Below, in pieces: positions 10,848 to 35,178 of a stretch of 35,386 bases of DNA. This stretch comes from Candidatus Parabeggiatoa sp. nov. 3. Its GTDB lineage: Bacteria; Pseudomonadota; Gammaproteobacteria; Beggiatoales; Beggiatoaceae. The notes under the pieces were generated by a model. It had not been told where the DNA came from. It did no database searches and saw nothing but the letters and a program-made list of their open reading frames with translations. Both the position numbers and the translations under genes were made by a program. The stretch spans positions 1 to 35,386 of the forward strand of contig QNEL01000014.1 in assembly GCA_003645185.1 (NCBI GenBank). The letters run 5' to 3'. Numbering within the stretch: the stretch's first letter is position 1; every line of letters starts with the position of its first letter.

Positions 10848-12230
10848 TTATTGAACTTCCAAATCCCCATGATCAACGAGTTCAAATATTAATTTCTCAC
10901 CTTCTCGGAATCCTTCTAAATCGGCCCATGATTTGACTAACTTACCAGACTCATTGCGGTGACGCACGACAGGAATATGCAGTTTCAAGTCTGGTGACAG
11001 GGTGGCTTCATAATCCTGTGGCGGTATATCTAACGGATTCACCACTCGCCCCAAAAACAAAATGCTGCCCGATGGATTATGGCGAATTAAGAATAGAAAA
11101 GGATGATCAGCGCGGAAGGTTTTAGGGGGTTCAGGCATAGCTGTTCCGCCAATACCAATACCAGTTGATGCAGCGGCTTCTGTGCCTTTTTCATTGACAT
11201 CGACAAACGCTTTATGAATGACTGAAGAAATAACGAGGTTTTTTGTACCATTTAGCCCTGAAAAGTCGGCCTGACGAGAATTGAACGCATCTGGCATACC
11301 CATAACCGCAAGTGTGTTGGATAACTCAAATTCACCACTGATCTTGAATTTGGGCAAAAAGACGGTAACGTCCTTTTTTATAAAAAGGTTTAACCACATT
11401 TCAAGTTGTTCTGCTGTCAGCGACTGTTCCCATTTCGAGAACCCACCCTTGGGAAGAATAACTATCATGGAAACTTCATTTCCTTCGTAGGGCAGTTCAA
11501 GCACTTGAACAAGAGCATCTTCAAAATACGAACTGTGAATTTCTTTCTGACTCATCATGAACGGCACCTCAACACTGGTTTCGGGAGTCACCCAAAAAAG
11601 CGCCGTTTCACTCTTATCAAACTCAGTGGCCCAATTGCCTTTAAAATAAATAGCATTAACGAGGACAAGGCGGGTTAAACTACTGAGCATACCCTGCTTA
11701 ATGAGTTCTTTGATTTTGTTTTGGGTTTGTTCCTCTACCCAAATGTTGATTTTCAAGCGGGCCGCTTCAAAAGCAGTTTGAAAATCAACCGATTTCAGTT
11801 CAGCCTGATAAGCATTTGTTACCAAGTCGATAAAGCTATCAAGAAAGGGATAGGCTTGATCAACCCACAATCCATTGGCAACATTGAGCGCGATATCTTC
11901 TTTCTGCTGAGCCGCATTGATTTGCGCTTGCAACTCACCAAATGCGGAATGAAATTGAGTTTGATCTGTGCCAAAATGTAAAACATCAGACATTTGCACC
12001 GCAGTCTGCTCTCGTGCCCCAGCATAAGTCATAGCGAGAGCGGTTGAAATACTGTAGGGGGATAAAAAAAGATTACCCGTTTGCAATGTTTGCAATTGCT
12101 TGTAGAGATCAAATGCAAAAGCGGTGTTACTCGACACGACAGCCTCTGTGTTTTCAGCTGCAAAAACCGCTTGAGTTGACACCAAGAATACTGTAATGCT
12201 TGCCGTTAAGATTTGTTTTTTCAGTTTCAT
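10848..12230 (-). CDS. Secreted serpin (serine/cysteine protease inhibitor)
   Basis: A 460-residue serpin counted from the ATG at 12230, which gives a clean signal peptide (MKLKKQ, hydrophobic core, cleavage near VFA-AEN); an ATG six codons upstream is possible. The serpin fold is covered in full: FDLYKQL, NLFLSPYSISTALAM, LVLVNAIYFKGNW, and the C-terminal signature FRADHPFLFLIRHNPSGSI (about 372-390). The reactive-loop hinge EKGTEAAAST (about 347-356) has the small residues typical of inhibitory serpins. The scissile bond should lie within GGTAMPEPP; small or apolar residues there suggest an elastase-, chymotrypsin- or subtilisin-like target. About 62 residues follow the normal end of the fold (FLGRVVNP), an unusual extension. 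Serpins are uncommon in proteobacteria. Confidence 0.93.
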   Translation of the reverse strand: MKLKKQILTASITVFLVSTQAVFAAENTEAVVSSNTAFAFDLYKQLQTLQTGNLFLSPYSISTALAMTYAGAREQTAVQMSDVLHFGTDQTQFHSAFGELQAQINAAQQKEDIALNVANGLWVDQAYPFLDSFIDLVTNAYQAELKSVDFQTAFEAARLKINIWVEEQTQNKIKELIKQGMLSSLTRLVLVNAIYFKGNWATEFDKSETALFWVTPETSVEVPFMMSQKEIHSSYFEDALVQVLELPYEGNEVSMIVILPKGGFSKWEQSLTAEQLEMWLNLFIKKDVTVFLPKFKISGEFELSNTLAVMGMPDAFNSRQADFSGLNGTKNLVISSVIHKAFVDVNEKGTEAAASTGIGIGGTAMPEPPKTFRADHPFLFLIRHNPSGSILFLGRVVNPLDIPPQDYEATLSPDLKLHIPVVRHRNESGKLVKSWADLEGFREGEKLIFELVDHGDLEVQ

Positions 12231-12409
12231 AGCAATAATAGCAATCATCTACCAAAATTTATAACATGTCAATCATTGTTTATATTGACAGCCTTAGAGA
12301 GAAGAAATATTATAAATCAATCATTTACAAATGCATTCAAAAGTGTTCACAAGTTCAAGAGTCAGTTGCCATTGAAAAAGGCGAGAGGTTCGCCCCTACT
12401 CATAAACTC

Positions 12410-16348: not shown

Positions 16349-16489
16349 TTAAAGACTTGCCATTTCAAACCAAAGGAGTGTCGGAGCCATCAATGATACT
16401 TGATCTAATTGATTAGCTATGTCAGTCGCTTGTGGTTCATTAAATAATACAGCCGCAATAGCGGAAGCATCCACGACTTTAATGTTCAT
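16349..16489 (-). pseudogene. Truncated PIN-domain (VapC/FitB-like) toxin
   Basis: A 46-codon remnant starting MNIKVVDASAIAAVLFNEP, the canonical N-terminus of PIN-domain RNase toxins including the first catalytic Asp (D7). It continues to LLWFEMASL and then stops at TAA. Normal PIN toxins have about 130-140 residues, so the other acidic residues are absent and no RNase activity is expected. The stop lies six bases from the end of the MITE-like repeat 16189-16343, so insertion or deletion at that repeat probably removed the rest. The ATG overlaps the end of the antitoxin gene by 11 bases, the usual operon arrangement. Confidence 0.8.
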
Positions 16490-16712
16490 CTCGATCACCT
16501 CTAATCATCTCAACAGATTCTGCCGGGGTTTCCAAGCCAAGCTGTTGTACTTTAGCCAAGATTTGCTTTGGTGTGGATGGTTTAACTTTGATGGCATCTT
16601 CCAAAATGGTTAGCAATTCACTTTGTAAGGTACGGTGATTTTGAGAAGCACGTAAAGCGATGTTTTGTACGATCAGTTCCGGTACGTTATTAATAGAAAG
16701 TGTCACTGGCAT
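16479..16712 (-). CDS. FitA/VapB-like ribbon-helix-helix antitoxin
   Basis: A 77-residue protein from the ATG at 16712, chosen because GAGGA lies seven bases upstream. An alternative start 11 codons earlier lacks support. The N-terminal VTLSINNVPELIVQNIALRA followed by SQNHRTLQSELLTILEDAI is the Arc/FitA ribbon-helix-helix pattern (beta strand, helix, helix with SxxSE). The C-terminal 30 residues (PKQILAKVQQLG) would be the toxin-binding tail. Such proteins bind their own promoter and neutralise a PIN toxin. The partner toxin is truncated here, leaving an orphan antitoxin. Confidence 0.85.
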   Translation of the reverse strand: MPVTLSINNVPELIVQNIALRASQNHRTLQSELLTILEDAIKVKPSTPKQILAKVQQLGLETPAESVEMIRGDRDEH

Positions 16713-16813
16713 ATGCCTGTCCTCAATGTTTAAAACTTGTGTCACTGTAGTTCAATTAAAAATTTTAGGCAAGTCCTTTTCCTTCTTCCCAAACTTTGCA
16801 ACTTCTATGTCGG

Positions 16814-17036: not shown

Positions 17037-20000
17037 ATGAATTTACGACACTCTTTAAAACAACTCTTCAAAAAGCAAAAAGATCGCTTAACCCAATCAC
17101 CTCGTTTCCATACGGTCATTGAAGATCAATACCCAGAAAGCACCCTATTAAGTACACAAGGTTGCCATCAAAAGGGATTAATTTCTCATGGACAAATTCC
17201 CGTTACCCTATTAGCCGGTGTCTGCATTCGTTTTCACTTAATCCCCAGTGAACCCCTTATTACCGGCCTACGTTTAAGATTTGGCACGTATTGTCGGATC
17301 AATCAGTGCCACATCACGCTGAGAATCAACGATTTTACACACCGTTTTAATGCGCGTCAGTTAGTCGATAATCAATCAACCGATATTCTGTTTCCCACAC
17401 CGCAAACCTGTATTCCTGGGCAACCCGTCGCGCTTGAAATTTATTGTGAAGATGCCGCTTCCAATCACACCGTCGCCGTTTGGTGTGGCAAAATGCAAAC
17501 TGCTTTTATCAATACCCTGAATTTAAATAAACCCCTGATTTTCCCAGAACTCTCACAACCGCGTGTCAGTATCGTCATCCCTGTTTTTAATAAAGCCTTG
17601 TACACCTACAACTGCTTATTAACACTACAAGCTTGCGATCCGGAAATCAGCAAAGAAGTGATTATTATTAATAATGCTTCTAGTGATGATACCGCTGCCC
17701 TATTGGCACAATTGCAAGGTGCAATCAAGATCATCAATAACACCAAAAATCAGGGTTTTGTACAAGCCTGTCGGCAAGGTGCAGAAATTGCCAATGGCGA
17801 ATTCATTCTCTTTTTAAATAATGACACTCAAGTCACGCCTAGCTGGTTATCGAATCTCGTGAAAGTCATGGATACCCAAGCCGATATCGGCATTACCGGT
17901 TCCAAATTGATTTATCCAGATGAGCAGTTGCAAGAAGCAGGTGGGATGATTTTTAACGATGCCAGTGGTTGGAATTATGGCAGATTGCAAGAACCCACAG
18001 ATGCGCGTTATAACCAAAGTCGAGAAGTCGATTATTGCTCAGGCGCGAGTTTAATGATCAGAAAAACCCTATGGAATCAACTAGGTGGCTTTGATATGCG
18101 CTACGCGCCAGCCTATTACGAAGACACCGATTTATGTTTTGCAGCGCGTCAAGCCGGTTATAAAGTCTATTATTGTCACGACTCCCAAGTCATACACCAT
18201 GAAGGCATTACCGCCGGCACTGATATTCAAAGCGGTTATAAAGTCTATCAAGGCATCAATCGGAAAAAATTTCAAGCCAAATGGTGGAACGTCTTATCAA
18301 GTCACCCACCACCACCGCCACAAAGCTCCCCCGATGCTGCCGCATTCCGCTTTATGGCGGCCACCCATTTTCGCATCCCAGAAAACAAAATCATAGCCAC
18401 CCACTTTTTAGCACAAGGCTGGGCCGCCAATTTTTGGAGTTATTTGAATATCAACAAAGTTGATCAAGAAATCGAACTGATTCAAAGCATGGGATTTAAT
18501 ACCGTCATACTCTTAATCCCCTGGGTAGGTTTTCAAACCAAAGTTGATCCCATCACCTATTATCAAGACTATTTCACCTTGTTTCAGCAATTATTAGACA
18601 AATTGCAACAGCATAATCTGCAAGTCATTTTGCGACTCGGTTATAGTCATGATAACGGCCCTGACAGCGAGCCAGAAGGCTTTTTGCGGCAAATCGTTAT
18701 TGCTGCCGAACCGCTTATGTTAAAAGCATGGTGTGATTATTTGGATCGGCTATGGGATATCGCACAACGCTATTCTAATGTACTCGGAGGGTTTATTACT
18801 TGGGAAGACTTCTTTTTCATGGATTTAACGCACACTCCCCCAGAAACACGGCTATTATTTGGCACGCGCACCGGTTATCAACGTTATTTGGAAGAACACT
18901 ATACCCTAGAAGAGATTTCTGATCGTTATCAACACAGCTTTGAAGCTTATACTGACATCCCAATTCCCGCTTTCAAATCCAGAGCGATTCATTTATTCTG
19001 TGCATTTTGGGATCAAATACTGATTGAAACGCTTTTCCAAGCCTCCAAAAAACATTTTCCACCGTTAACGATGGAAGTCAGAACCGATTGCGATTATCAA
19101 GAAGACTCAACTATCTGTCATCACGACACTTTTGATTTGACACCAGACACCTATTTGACAACGATTTACTATGCGCCAGCATGGGGGGCCCCTAATGATG
19201 GCCGTTTAGAAACGGCCGAAGAGGTTTTAAAACGTATGCAGTTTATGTTTGATCATCTTCATACCCAAACCAACAACCTCTTTTTTATTGATCAATTCAA
19301 TTTCATTGATAACACACCAGGCTTTGAACATAACACCAGCATTTTACCGGATCAGATTCCTCAGTTTTTAGCCGGCGTTGCCCCCATTTTACAATCACAA
19401 ACGATTGGATACGGAATGTGGACATTACACGATGTTCGTGCTAACGCATTGAAAAATGGCCTGTTTGAACGCGATTACCCAATATGGGAAATAGACAATG
19501 GCGAAATCGTTTTTGATAGTGCGACTCAAAAAAAAGCTGCTTTGTTAAGATCAAACGGTGTACTCAGTCAATTACTGGCTTGGTGTGTCGGTATTCCTTA
19601 TGTCAAAGAGATGCCTTTTCAATTAGACTTTAAAGTGAAATCGGCAGAGGATGCCAAGACAGCCGGTGAAATCTCGCTTGTTGTGGTTTATGAGAATAAA
19701 ATCATACATCAAGACACCGTATCTTGGCAGATTGAAAACGATTGGCAAGATATCCATTTAGAGAATATACCGTTTTACCTTGGGCATACCTTAAAACTCG
19801 AAAATCAAGGCACGCCCGTTTTGTTGAGTGATTTATACTTATATCAAGTCTGGCAAGAAAACGGAGTCATTGATGCCCAAGGCAAACCCAAATCGTTTTA
19901 CAAACACTTAGTTTCGCTCAACCAACAGTTGACTCATCAAAAACAGCCTCAGTTGAAAAGTGTTTTTCAGCAAGAAGACATCACACCAGAACAGCTTGAA

Positions 20001-20351
20001 GGTGTCTTTCCTGATCACTGGATGGGTAAAACCGTATTAGGGCTCATTGCCCAACCGCTTGAACAAGAAAACTTCTCTTTTGTGATCAAAGCGTATGTAC
20101 CAGAAACTTGGCAGGATTATCATAACAGCATTATGTTAACCCTAGATGCTCAACAATATCCTATCAGTCAACCCATTAAAGCAGGTTACAACGAAATTTT
20201 AGTCGGCCCACTAGACAATAGCTTGTTTAACGACATCGTCTTTTTTCAATTAGAAGCCGAAAACGTTTTTTCTCCTAGCCAATATGATGCACAGTCTCAA
20301 GATGATCGAAAAATCAGTCTGCAATTAATCGAATTAGGTTTTGAAGGCTAG
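17037..20351 (+). CDS. GT2 glycosyltransferase fused to a glycoside-hydrolase-like TIM barrel
   Basis: A 1104-residue multidomain protein. Residues about 55-155 repeat the accessory module seen twice in the glycosyltransferase at 880-3669 (LRLRFGTYCRINQCHITL, CEDAASNHT). Residues about 175-420 are a GT-A domain with VSIVIPVFN, NNASSDDT, NND at 261-263 and YEDTD at 361-365. After a proline-rich linker (SSHPPPPPQSS), residues about 440-815 read as a clan GH-A-like (beta/alpha)8 barrel: GFNTVILLIPWVGF, LQVILRLGY, GGFITWEDFFF (E590 as candidate acid/base) and GYGMWTLHDVRAN near the end. The expected strand-7 nucleophile position reads FFIDQFNF (750-756), so the usual Glu may be missing. The last 290 residues are beta-rich. 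No signal peptide or membrane segment is visible, so the barrel would be cytoplasmic. The GT call is firm; the hydrolase function is an inference. Confidence 0.85.
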   Translation: MNLRHSLKQLFKKQKDRLTQSPRFHTVIEDQYPESTLLSTQGCHQKGLISHGQIPVTLLAGVCIRFHLIPSEPLITGLRLRFGTYCRINQCHITLRINDFTHRFNARQLVDNQSTDILFPTPQTCIPGQPVALEIYCEDAASNHTVAVWCGKMQTAFINTLNLNKPLIFPELSQPRVSIVIPVFNKALYTYNCLLTLQACDPEISKEVIIINNASSDDTAALLAQLQGAIKIINNTKNQGFVQACRQGAEIANGEFILFLNNDTQVTPSWLSNLVKVMDTQADIGITGSKLIYPDEQLQEAGGMIFNDASGWNYGRLQEPTDARYNQSREVDYCSGASLMIRKTLWNQLGGFDMRYAPAYYEDTDLCFAARQAGYKVYYCHDSQVIHHEGITAGTDIQSGYKVYQGINRKKFQAKWWNVLSSHPPPPPQSSPDAAAFRFMAATHFRIPENKIIATHFLAQGWAANFWSYLNINKVDQEIELIQSMGFNTVILLIPWVGFQTKVDPITYYQDYFTLFQQLLDKLQQHNLQVILRLGYSHDNGPDSEPEGFLRQIVIAAEPLMLKAWCDYLDRLWDIAQRYSNVLGGFITWEDFFFMDLTHTPPETRLLFGTRTGYQRYLEEHYTLEEISDRYQHSFEAYTDIPIPAFKSRAIHLFCAFWDQILIETLFQASKKHFPPLTMEVRTDCDYQEDSTICHHDTFDLTPDTYLTTIYYAPAWGAPNDGRLETAEEVLKRMQFMFDHLHTQTNNLFFIDQFNFIDNTPGFEHNTSILPDQIPQFLAGVAPILQSQTIGYGMWTLHDVRANALKNGLFERDYPIWEIDNGEIVFDSATQKKAALLRSNGVLSQLLAWCVGIPYVKEMPFQLDFKVKSAEDAKTAGEISLVVVYENKIIHQDTVSWQIENDWQDIHLENIPFYLGHTLKLENQGTPVLLSDLYLYQVWQENGVIDAQGKPKSFYKHLVSLNQQLTHQKQPQLKSVFQQEDITPEQLEGVFPDHWMGKTVLGLIAQPLEQENFSFVIKAYVPETWQDYHNSIMLTLDAQQYPISQPIKAGYNEILVGPLDNSLFNDIVFFQLEAENVFSPSQYDAQSQDDRKISLQLIELGFEG

Positions 20352-27916: not shown

Positions 27917-27968
27917 AATAAAATCAAGCAGTTAATAACTTTGTATAATGTGTGAGAGAACGATTGCT

Positions 27969-29760
27969 ATGATCTCAAAAAAATATGAAAGTCAAACAAT
28001 TCAACGGGTTGCATGGCTCACTGTTTTTATCTTGACAGCGATACTCTTTATCGCGTTGCAAAATTTCTTTCCATTTATCCAACTGATTAGCTTAGACGAA
28101 CCCATTGCGTATGCCTATTTAGAAGATATCAGCATCAAACTGTTACTCTCTTTGGTGCTAACCCTATTATTGGTTAGTACAGTGATGAAATACACTTCCC
28201 TTGCTATGACGCTGACTTTAGGAGCAGCACTTGGCATGGTTTTTTTCATCATCGTCTTGAATCTCAAAATGGTTGATCCAACCCAAATTAACTGGTTGAT
28301 GCGTCGAGATTGGCAATGGCACTTTATGGGTTGGCACTTTTTCAGGCATGAACCTTGGCACTTTCCGGTTGTGGGAAAGATTAGCGGGATTATTTTTCCC
28401 GTCGGCACCTCCATCGGTTTAACCGATTCTATTCCGCTGTTTGCCTTACTCTTTAAACCGTTTACGGCATTATTGCCGCGTGATTTTCAATACATCGGTT
28501 TATGGTTTCTCACTTGTTTTACCTTACAGGGTGTTTTTGCGGCCCTATTAATCCGACTACGCAGTCAAAATCTGCTCATTATCGCTATTGGCAGCCTATT
28601 TTTTGTATTGAGTCCGATTTTACTCATCCGCCTCAATCACGCCGCTCTGTGTGCCCACTGGTTATTACTGGCAGGACTTTGGCTGTACTTTAGAACTTCT
28701 CAGAGTAGCCCATATGGGGCTGGTTGATCTTTATCAGTCTCAGTGCCTTAATTCATCCTTATTTAACCGCAATGATGTTCGGTTTAGTCACCGCTTTTTA
28801 TGCACGTCTGTGGTTAATTGATCGTCGCTATACCGCTATTTCTGTTTTAGGGCAATTACTCCTATTAGGCTTAACCTATGAATTTACTGGCACCATTTAA
28901 CCCAATGTGGTGGTCTCTATTACTCAAAAATATGCCTGTCGTCACAGAGGGCCAAAATGATGGATTTAATTATCTCGGTGTAGGCGTATTAGTGATGGGC
29001 ATTTGGGCCATCTATGAATTAAGCAAGCGTACTATGCAAGCAGCAACGTTCAAAAAACTGTTGCCTTTAGGTGTCGTCTGTATTGGTTTTACCCTGTTTG
29101 CCCTCAGTAATAAAATCACAATGGGAGATGCTGTACTCATTGATTTTAAAAGTGATTTAATGAATCTATTTGCCCCATTTCAATCATCAGGTCGATTTTT
29201 TTTGGCCTGTCAATTACACGCTACTTTTTTTAATCATTAGCCTATTGATTGTCAGGAATAGATTACGCACTGCCATTATCTACCTCAGTTTCGCTTTGAC
29301 GATTCAAGTACTTGATTTACACGCGATACATCAAGCTATCCGTCACAACCATAGAGAAGCGAGCTTCTATAGCTGGGAGAATCCTTTACAGTCTTCTACT
29401 TGGAACGAATTGTCTTCGTATGATTATCAACATATCACTTTAGTTCCTCCAAGTGCTTGTGGAGAAGCGGCGGCACCTTATTTACCTTTTTCACGCCTAG
29501 CAGGCCGTTATGATATGACGATCAACAGTGGTGTTGCGGCACGAGTTGATGTTGAAAAAATGAAGCAATATTGTCAGACGCTCTTTTTAGATATCCGGCA
29601 GGGCAAAGTGACAGATGACACGATTTATATACTCCATCCTAACTATCTGGAGGAATTTAAAAAAGCGACGGTGCCCATCGTGTGTCTCAAGATTGATGGT
29701 TTTGACACCTGTGTCACAGAGGCCAGCTTCAAACAATGGGAAGGAAGCCAACATTATTGA
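27969..29760 (+). pseudogene. DUF6311-like polytopic membrane protein, broken by three frame changes
   Basis: One protein is spread over three frames. Segment 1 (from ATG 27969 to about 28710) has many hydrophobic helices and HFFRHEPWHFPVVGKISG, FPVGTSIGLTDSIPL. Segment 2 (about 28709-28877, frame offset 2) continues PIWGWLIFISLSALIHPYL. Segment 3 returns to the first frame with MNLLAPFNPMWWSLLLKNMP. Segment 4 (from about 29204, offset 1) runs WPVNYTLLFLIISLL to the stop at 29760. The first break is one base short in a C-run at 28709. The third is one base too many in an eight-T run (29196-29203). At the second, family comparison suggests some residues are also missing. The intact protein would be a glycan-related membrane protein of about 595 residues. 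Decay or assembly error are both possible. Confidence 0.75.
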
Positions 29761-33582: not shown

Positions 33583-35178
33583 TTATTCTCTGTGGTACTC
33601 TGTGGTACTCTGTGGTACTCCGTGTTCTCTGTGTTGAAAAAACCAAGCTCGCGCTGTGAAACAGGCCAATAACCCTCGCAATAACCACACAATATCTGTA
33701 CTAAAATGACGGGTACGAGCATAATGGGCTTCCACTATCAAACGTTCTTCTCTTGGGGCATCGAACGACAACGTCAATTGACTTGGCCCGATTAAACCTA
33801 CTGGCGCGTAATCGCGCATTCTTTCCCAAACCTCAATATGATCTGTCTGAGCCGTGCGTGCTTCTGCTTGTTCAGGTGTTTCTGGCCGCACACCTACCAT
33901 CCGTAATCGCCCTGTGATAACCGCCAATAATTTCGGTAAATGTCGCAATAAGGCAATGGAGGTTGCCCATTCCAAAGCGGTAAAATCACGCGGCTGTGAG
34001 ATACCCTCTTGATCGATTCTTTTGAGATTGCCCCGTAACTTGATTTTGCGTAAAGGTTTCCGAGGATTTTGCAATAATGCGGCTAACAAGGCTAACGGCC
34101 ATAATGGTATTGAAATCAACAACGTGAATACACCTAAAGCACGGTTTAACACTTCAACAAATTGGCTATACAGGATTGGTGTCTTCAAATCAGCCAATAA
34201 TCGCCTATCAAAAATGAGCTGAACCTTGCCAGTATTAACGGGTATCAACAGATTACCCCAAACAATAGCATTATTGAGTTCCAGCGATTGACCAATATAA
34301 GTGCAGGGCAGAACAACAGTATTATTGAGCTTGGCATGACGCTCAACTTTTACATCGTCACATAATACCACTTTATCGACTAAACGCGCCCCCGCATGAA
34401 CGCGGCAAAAAGCACCGACTAGCCCCGTATTATGCGGAGAAACCTTAGAACGACGACCGACTTGTAATTTATCCGTGATTTTTCGCACAGGTAAAACTAA
34501 AGTTGGAAAATGTCCTGCCAAAATGTCAAAATTAGCTTGATGAAAAGCTTTCAGGGAATCTAGCATCGATAACTTACCTTCAACCGGAAGCGCGTAAAAT
34601 GTTGTTTCCGGTGTTAAAGTGTCTGGATTGACAAAAACCCTGTTTTGATTGACTTGTTGCCCATTGGCCGATTGATGCTTTGCAATAAGGGGAATGCAAG
34701 GAAAACGAACTAAATTACTCGCTTGCCAAGGATTCGGGCCCGTTTGTTGACGCAATAAGCTCATACCCGCATGACTTCCTTGAATGGTTGCCACGATTTG
34801 TCCATCAAGTTGTTGGGCTTCGCTTAAAAAATCCTGAATCTCAAGACTACGCAGTAAATCAGCACGAATAAGCAAGTATTCAGAATCGCTCAATTGAGCA
34901 CCTAAGCGAGCAAGCACATCAGCCGGCGCTTCTTGCCCACGACTCAATATATATTCAAACTCTAAACCCCAACGTTCACCATTGCCCAAATAGCGTTCTA
35001 TGTAATCAGCAAAAGGTGAAATCACGACAAAAACCTCGCGTATACCGGCCATCCATAATGCTTCAAGTGTATATTCAATCAAAGGTTTAGTCGCGATTGG
35101 CAATAAAGCAACACAAGTTCTCTGAGTTAAAGGTTGTAATTCTGAACCCTTGCGATCAGCAAATAAAATAGCTTTCAT
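33583..35178 (-). CDS. NDP-sugar pyrophosphorylase-like / bacterial sugar transferase fusion
   Basis: A 531-residue fusion. Residues 1-230 look like a nucleotidyltransferase domain (MKAILFADRKGSELQPLTQR, IATKPLIEYTLEALWMAGIR), but the GGxGTR loop reads DRKGSE and the usual PKP lysine is lost, so it may be inactive. Residues about 255-325 are hexapeptide-like turns. Residues about 340-515 are a bacterial sugar transferase (WcaJ/PF02397 type): hydrophobic segment GVFTLLISIPLWPLALLAAL, then GRLRMVGVRPETPEQAEAR (from 423) and PVGLIGPSQL (458-467). It should load a sugar phosphate onto undecaprenyl phosphate to start a glycan. The last 16 residues are encoded by a simple repeat and look like read-through. 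The ATG follows heptamer repeats, with no Shine-Dalgarno. Confidence 0.82.
   Translation of the reverse strand: MKAILFADRKGSELQPLTQRTCVALLPIATKPLIEYTLEALWMAGIREVFVVISPFADYIERYLGNGERWGLEFEYILSRGQEAPADVLARLGAQLSDSEYLLIRADLLRSLEIQDFLSEAQQLDGQIVATIQGSHAGMSLLRQQTGPNPWQASNLVRFPCIPLIAKHQSANGQQVNQNRVFVNPDTLTPETTFYALPVEGKLSMLDSLKAFHQANFDILAGHFPTLVLPVRKITDKLQVGRRSKVSPHNTGLVGAFCRVHAGARLVDKVVLCDDVKVERHAKLNNTVVLPCTYIGQSLELNNAIVWGNLLIPVNTGKVQLIFDRRLLADLKTPILYSQFVEVLNRALGVFTLLISIPLWPLALLAALLQNPRKPLRKIKLRGNLKRIDQEGISQPRDFTALEWATSIALLRHLPKLLAVITGRLRMVGVRPETPEQAEARTAQTDHIEVWERMRDYAPVGLIGPSQLTLSFDAPREERLIVEAHYARTRHFSTDIVWLLRGLLACFTARAWFFQHREHGVPQSTTEYHRE
33588..33633. repeat. TGTGGTACTC decamer repeat at the 3' end of the fusion gene
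   Basis: TGTGGTACTC occurs three times in tandem at 33591-33620, followed by a decayed copy, CGTGTTCTCTGTG. The repeat lies inside the frame and supplies the last codons of the sugar-transferase fusion (HREHGVPQSTTEYHRE), so the original stop codon was probably replaced. Confidence 0.75.

Follow-up and report, generated by a model that had tools for sequence, protein, structure and literature searches.

Domain layout of the fused gene

The window, that is, the whole stretch of 35,386 nucleotides analyzed here (Candidatus Parabeggiatoa sp. nov. 3, contig QNEL01000014.1), contains on its forward strand an open reading frame (17037 to 20351) encoding a protein of 1104 amino acids, and it also encodes other glycosyltransferases (GTs), a nucleotidyltransferase/sugar-phosphate transferase, and methyltransferases. 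From the N to the C terminus, the protein comprises a beta module, a GT2 domain, a hinge, a barrel of the kind found in glycoside hydrolase (GH) clan GH-A, and two beta-sandwich modules, a layout supported by orthologs; the positions given for these features all refer to the forward strand.

The N-terminal beta module (residues 50 to 165; 17184 to 17531) gave no Pfam match and had a mean ortholog identity of 50%. The segment behind it (residues 175 to 425; 17559 to 18311) matched PF00535 with an E value of 6.5e-25 and a score of 88.4 bits, where the cut-off is 23.3, the match covering positions 1 to 164 of 168 in the profile. Both the DXD-type nucleotide-sugar/metal motif N261-N262-D263 (17817 to 17825) and the GT2 acceptor-side/base motif Y361-E-D-T-D365 (18117 to 18131) were invariant in nine orthologs. 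Judged by this profile match, the fusion protein has a GT2 domain of the GT-A fold, and the first-pass annotation of this DNA, which had described the domain as intact and named the two motifs, was correct in this respect.

The Pro-rich hinge (residues 423 to 438; 18303 to 18350), in which P426 and P427 were invariant among the fused orthologs, leads into the barrel (residues 445 to 805; 18369 to 19451). Two C-terminal beta-sandwiches follow in the structural model, the first at residues 815 to 965 (19479 to 19931), with a CBM_4_9 match in one homolog only, and the second at residues 990 to 1104 (20004 to 20348), which is absent from paralog L002 in the alignment. Since no hydrophobic segment was found in residues 1 to 60 (maximum 19-residue Kyte-Doolittle score of 0.38), the protein is read as cytoplasmic as far as the sequence tells, in line with the earlier statement that a signal peptide is lacking.

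Occurrence of the barrel and its fusion partners

A paralog in the same genome (contig C56) was 63% identical to the window protein over residues 160 to 968 and showed the order GT4-GT2-barrel. Within the Beggiatoaceae, the barrel was present in 17 of 42 genomes, and a search for the same domain order found it joined to GT2 in at least 11 of them, including members of Parabeggiatoa, Halobeggiatoa, Thioploca, and Thiomargarita. The first-pass annotation had allowed that two separate genes might have been joined here by an assembly error, and such an error was ruled out by the paralog and the orthologs of the same order. More broadly, the ortholog of Parabeggiatoa 4572_84 (L036:3374-5868), in which a frameshift, real or a sequencing error, leaves two overlapping open reading frames, could be taken as a sign of an artefact of assembly or gene fusion, or of a pseudo-domain in decay, but we consider this explanation extremely improbable, as one of the GT2-barrel carriers is a single-contig genome (G005) and the barrel retains a mean ortholog identity of 69%.

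The partners of the barrel varied. Proteins of about 2300 to 2400 residues ending in GT2 plus barrel were found in two genomes (L039:158-7048 and L040:9708-16853), and the one that was scanned, L040, is a single chain of GT2, GT4, and GT2 domains followed by the barrel. Three genomes have the barrel and its C-terminal modules without any fused transferase, and the barrel thus does not strictly need one. In the barrel tree, branches were long and the three standalone copies did not group together; the tree does not show whether the fusion or the standalone form is ancestral.

Outside the Beggiatoaceae, no clear relatives of the barrel turned up among 369 genomes of Gammaproteobacteria and 398 of Pseudomonadota, samples that are not exhaustive and partly overlap, and a second profile gave one short, weak match outside the family (E value of 1e-4 over 68 positions). 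Viral contigs and phages yielded no barrel relatives, and anti-phage models gave no match. A match on a Delftia plasmid (E value of 2), which lies on the strand opposite an annotated gene, was taken to be a chance hit.

When plasmids were searched with tblastn, a homolog from another phylum was recovered, in Pseudodesulfovibrio profundus (27% identity; E value of 1e-20). Its barrel sits behind a Sulfotransfer_2-like domain (E value of 6.7e-4; 20.3 bits, slightly short of the Pfam threshold of 22), and the fusion lies in a capsule island, among genes of the export, KpsC-like, GT, GHMP kinase, nucleotidyltransferase, and methyltransferase types. Depending on the lineage, the barrel carries a GT2, GT4-GT2, or sulfotransferase head and is in this sense a portable module. 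The sulfotransferase-barrel gene is found at L080:12295-14502 (NZ_LT907976.1), and two copies of one IS3 transposase flank the island.

Predicted fold of the barrel

An AlphaFold2 model of residues 441 to 1104, built from nine sequences, had a mean pLDDT of 70 and contained eight strand/helix units in (beta/alpha)8 order, followed by the two beta-sandwiches. The model of the full-length protein was poor (pLDDT of 54) and unusable for the mutual orientation of GT2 and barrel. The barrel was compared with known structures using VIA-align (PDB Z scores of 21 to 24), and it aligned with a GH5_18 enzyme (Z of 24.4, rmsd of 3.4, 318 residues), GH42 (Z of 23.4, rmsd of 4.4, 341 residues), and a GH164 beta-mannosidase (Z of 23.2, rmsd of 3.9, 327 residues). 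Because the model aligns with these clan structures at Z scores of 23.2 to 24.4, a clan GH-A fold is supported; the three matches are ties, and assignment to a particular family is not supported by the model. Fold prediction and comparison both agreed with the TIM barrel that the first-pass annotation had read behind the hinge.

With the clan members GH5_18, GH164 beta-mannosidases, GH42, and archaeal GH35-type enzymes the barrel has the (beta/alpha)8 fold and strand order in common, and with GH42 and archaeal exo-glucosaminidases it may also share a helical insert after strand 4. In clan GH-A enzymes, strand 6 usually has a conserved Tyr and strand 8 a Trp; the barrel has both. Sub-threshold sequence links likewise led to GH5, GH35, GH42, and archaeal exo-glucosaminidases. 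No Pfam or NCBIfam model reached its cut-off on the barrel; the best Pfam model for its sequence was Cellulase (PF00150; E value of 0.12, 12.2 bits versus a cut-off of 23.5), while GH42 (PF02449) gave no match to the window protein and an E value of 0.0041 for one divergent homolog. The barrel was further compared with genuine GH42 proteins taken from plasmids, using hhalign profiles and 40 shuffled trials. The profile of strands 3 to 5, with the helical insert included, scored 33.7 versus a shuffled maximum of 21.0 (probability of 53%), and the profile of strands 7 to 8, meant to fix the nucleophile column, gave no signal over the shuffles.

The catalytic motifs of the clan were absent. At the end of strand 4, the GH-A Asn-Glu is replaced by W589-E590-D591 (18801 to 18809) in all 17 sequences (16 from the Beggiatoaceae plus the Pseudodesulfovibrio homolog), and at the end of strand 7 (model strand 308 to 314 of the construct), where the GH-A Glu nucleophile is expected, the strand reads FFI-D752-Q753-F, with the Asp-Gln pair (19290 to 19295) invariant. 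Filing the barrel under GH42, GH35, or GH5 was rejected, given the scores below the Pfam cut-offs and the missing motifs. With neither the strand-4 Asn-Glu nor the strand-7 Glu in place, classing the barrel among the GH-A hydrolases is not warranted. It differs from the clan in having W-E-D, E-x-R-x-D, and D-Q motifs, and also in being cytoplasmic, as predicted, and fused to biosynthetic enzymes.

A conserved set of residues at the strand ends

The active sites of TIM barrels lie at the C-terminal ends of the strands. In the barrel, conservation was 0.83 at these ends versus 0.66 at the N-terminal ends, a difference reached by 2% of circular shifts. Residues R533, W589, E590, D591, E680, R682, D684, H695, Y711, D752, Q753, W795, and D799 were invariant in the 17 sequences from two phyla, and the Pseudodesulfovibrio homolog keeps them all at 22% identity over the barrel. 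Among them, R533 lies at the end of strand 3 (18633 to 18635), E680-x-R682-x-D684 at the end of strand 5 (19074 to 19088), and W795 and D799 on strand 8 (19419 to 19433). Both D752-Q753-F-N-F on strand 7 and W589-E590-D591 on strand 4 were invariant in 16 of 16 Beggiatoaceae family members. Their places in the model suggest that the invariant residues may form one catalytic pocket. Mean ortholog identity was 69% for the barrel, 75% for GT2, and 48 to 51% for the beta modules, so the barrel is constrained nearly like GT2 and unlike the beta modules.

The first-pass annotation, which had correctly placed the hinge, W589-E590-D591, and F750-I-D752-Q753-F-N-F756, had called the nucleophile doubtful. 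The canonical Glu is indeed missing, but this does not amount to decay: because the pocket residues are invariant in both phyla, whether the barrel is joined to a glycosyltransferase or to a sulfotransferase, the site on strand 7 is, on the aligned sequences, replaced by another invariant constellation and not eroded. A degenerate hydrolase was ruled out by the invariance of the pocket. Carboxylates were looked for at the ends of strands 4 and 7, and E590/D591 and D752 were found there. E590, the acid/base candidate named earlier, is invariant and at the right strand end, but an ungapped match to GH42 (GFITWED/GFQTDNE) aligns E590 with the Asn and D591 with the Glu. In light of this match, either E590 or D591 may take the GH-A acid/base position, and E590 could still serve though the Asn is absent. 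D752 is likely the nucleophile, as suggested by its place at a strand end in a medium-confidence model, not by an alignment; the catalytic role proposed for E590/D591 likewise follows from a strand end in that model.

Proposed function and relation to known systems

We propose, with a probability of about 0.5, that the barrel is the catalytically competent, glycosidase- or transglycosidase-type head of a cytoplasmic enzyme of surface-glycan synthesis. By its family membership, the GT2 head would transfer a sugar onto a glycan acceptor, using a nucleotide donor, and the barrel, similar in fold to clan GH-A but with an active site of its own, would be a second head that processes carbohydrates. 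D752 would probably act as nucleophile or base and E590/D591 as acid/base, while R533, E680, R682, D684, H695, Y711, and W795 would line the sugar site. The barrel may share its substrate, a glycan or lipid-linked intermediate, with the attached enzyme and would trim, transfer, or re-join it, and the flanking beta-sandwiches would hold the chain. This reading is favored by the intact GT2, the clan GH-A kinship of the fold, the invariant strand-end residues, and a polysaccharide setting: the capsule island of Pseudodesulfovibrio, the PIG-L/GT2 gene beside the paralog, and the sugar-related genes of the window. The missing canonical GH-A motifs and the variable neighborhoods of the fused gene speak against it.

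As the main alternative, and in line with the glycan-holding or length-sensing step suggested by the first-pass annotation, the barrel could be catalytically dead and serve beside GT2 as a clamp that holds the glycan or gauges its length, its polar pocket binding a specific sugar. This would fit the loss of both canonical GH-A motifs and the resemblance of the flanking beta-sandwiches to carbohydrate-binding modules, and it has a precedent in the tunicate cellulose synthase CesA, which likewise combines GT2 with a hydrolase-like barrel whose catalytic residues have changed, namely a GH6 domain lacking its catalytic Asp (PMC7464555). The tunicate enzyme differs in that its barrel is GH6 and not GH-A, that it is a eukaryotic membrane synthase, and that its Asp is lost, while the present barrel has a different invariant set instead. 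Five invariant carboxylates with an Arg and a His at or near the strand ends, kept over two phyla and with unlike fusion partners, are more than expected of an enzyme turned lectin, and barrel copies without a transferase exist; we regard a dead clamp as less likely than a catalytic head.

Less likely still is that the GH-A scaffold performs another chemistry in a bifunctional transferase, such as a glycosyl transfer that uses a lipid-linked or activated donor, or a lyase or epimerase reaction. The pocket is unlike those of the GH-A families compared here, the Arg on strand 3 and the E-x-R-x-D on strand 5 offer a possible binding site for an anionic group, and the partners (GT2, GT4, and sulfotransferase) are biosynthetic; against this, the barrel showed no direct sign of a donor or cofactor site, and the fold neighbors listed are mostly hydrolases.

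Fusions of transferases with hydrolases are already known. In the GT84-GH94 protein, as in our case, a glycosyltransferase and a hydrolase-type domain share one chain, and its GH94 part adjusts chain length; it differs in being a membrane protein of unrelated families whose GH94 is an active phosphorylase. Hydrolase-like barrels also occur in cytoplasmic polysaccharide-assembly proteins, as WbsX-type (GH99-like) domains of O-antigen clusters. These resemble the present barrel in their biosynthetic setting and differ in sequence, as the WbsX Pfam model gave no match to it at E values up to 1 (hmmscan). In a narrow literature search, we found neither the GT2-barrel pairing, this pocket, or its reuse with a sulfotransferase, nor a study of such machinery in Beggiatoaceae.

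When a hydrolase-like barrel occurs within a biosynthetic protein, it is readily written off as inactive or as a lectin. A strictly conserved pocket different from the textbook one, recurring with different biosynthetic partners, makes this barrel a candidate, open to direct testing, for a new enzyme family that helps assemble capsule or sheath polysaccharides, and the fusion points to an undescribed step in the building of surface sugars by giant sulfur bacteria. Tentatively, the barrel might represent a new family of carbohydrate-active enzymes built on the GH-A scaffold, defined by Asp-Gln on strand 7, Glu-Asp on strand 4, and Glu-x-Arg-x-Asp on strand 5, that serves as a portable cytoplasmic biosynthetic module transferring or editing the nascent glycan, on glycosyltransferases in giant sulfur bacteria and on a sulfotransferase in a sulfate reducer.

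Gene neighborhood

In most genomes the fused gene has different neighbors, and the context therefore gives no substrate. Just upstream of it in the window lies a small FitA/Arc-type antitoxin-like open reading frame on the reverse strand (16479 to 16745), whose partner toxin was not identified. The reverse strand also encodes a strong match to bacterial serpins (10848 to 12248; PF00079, E value of 7e-127) and a single chain of nucleotidyltransferase, hexapeptide repeat, and the C-terminal half of a Bac_transf sugar-phosphate transferase (33583 to 35178), a combination unusual for glycan initiation. On the forward strand, a DUF6311 membrane-protein gene (27948 to 29760) appears broken into three open reading frames in different frames. 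A neighbor of the paralog (L043:11783-14917) encodes a fusion of a PIG-L deacetylase-like domain with three GT2 domains.
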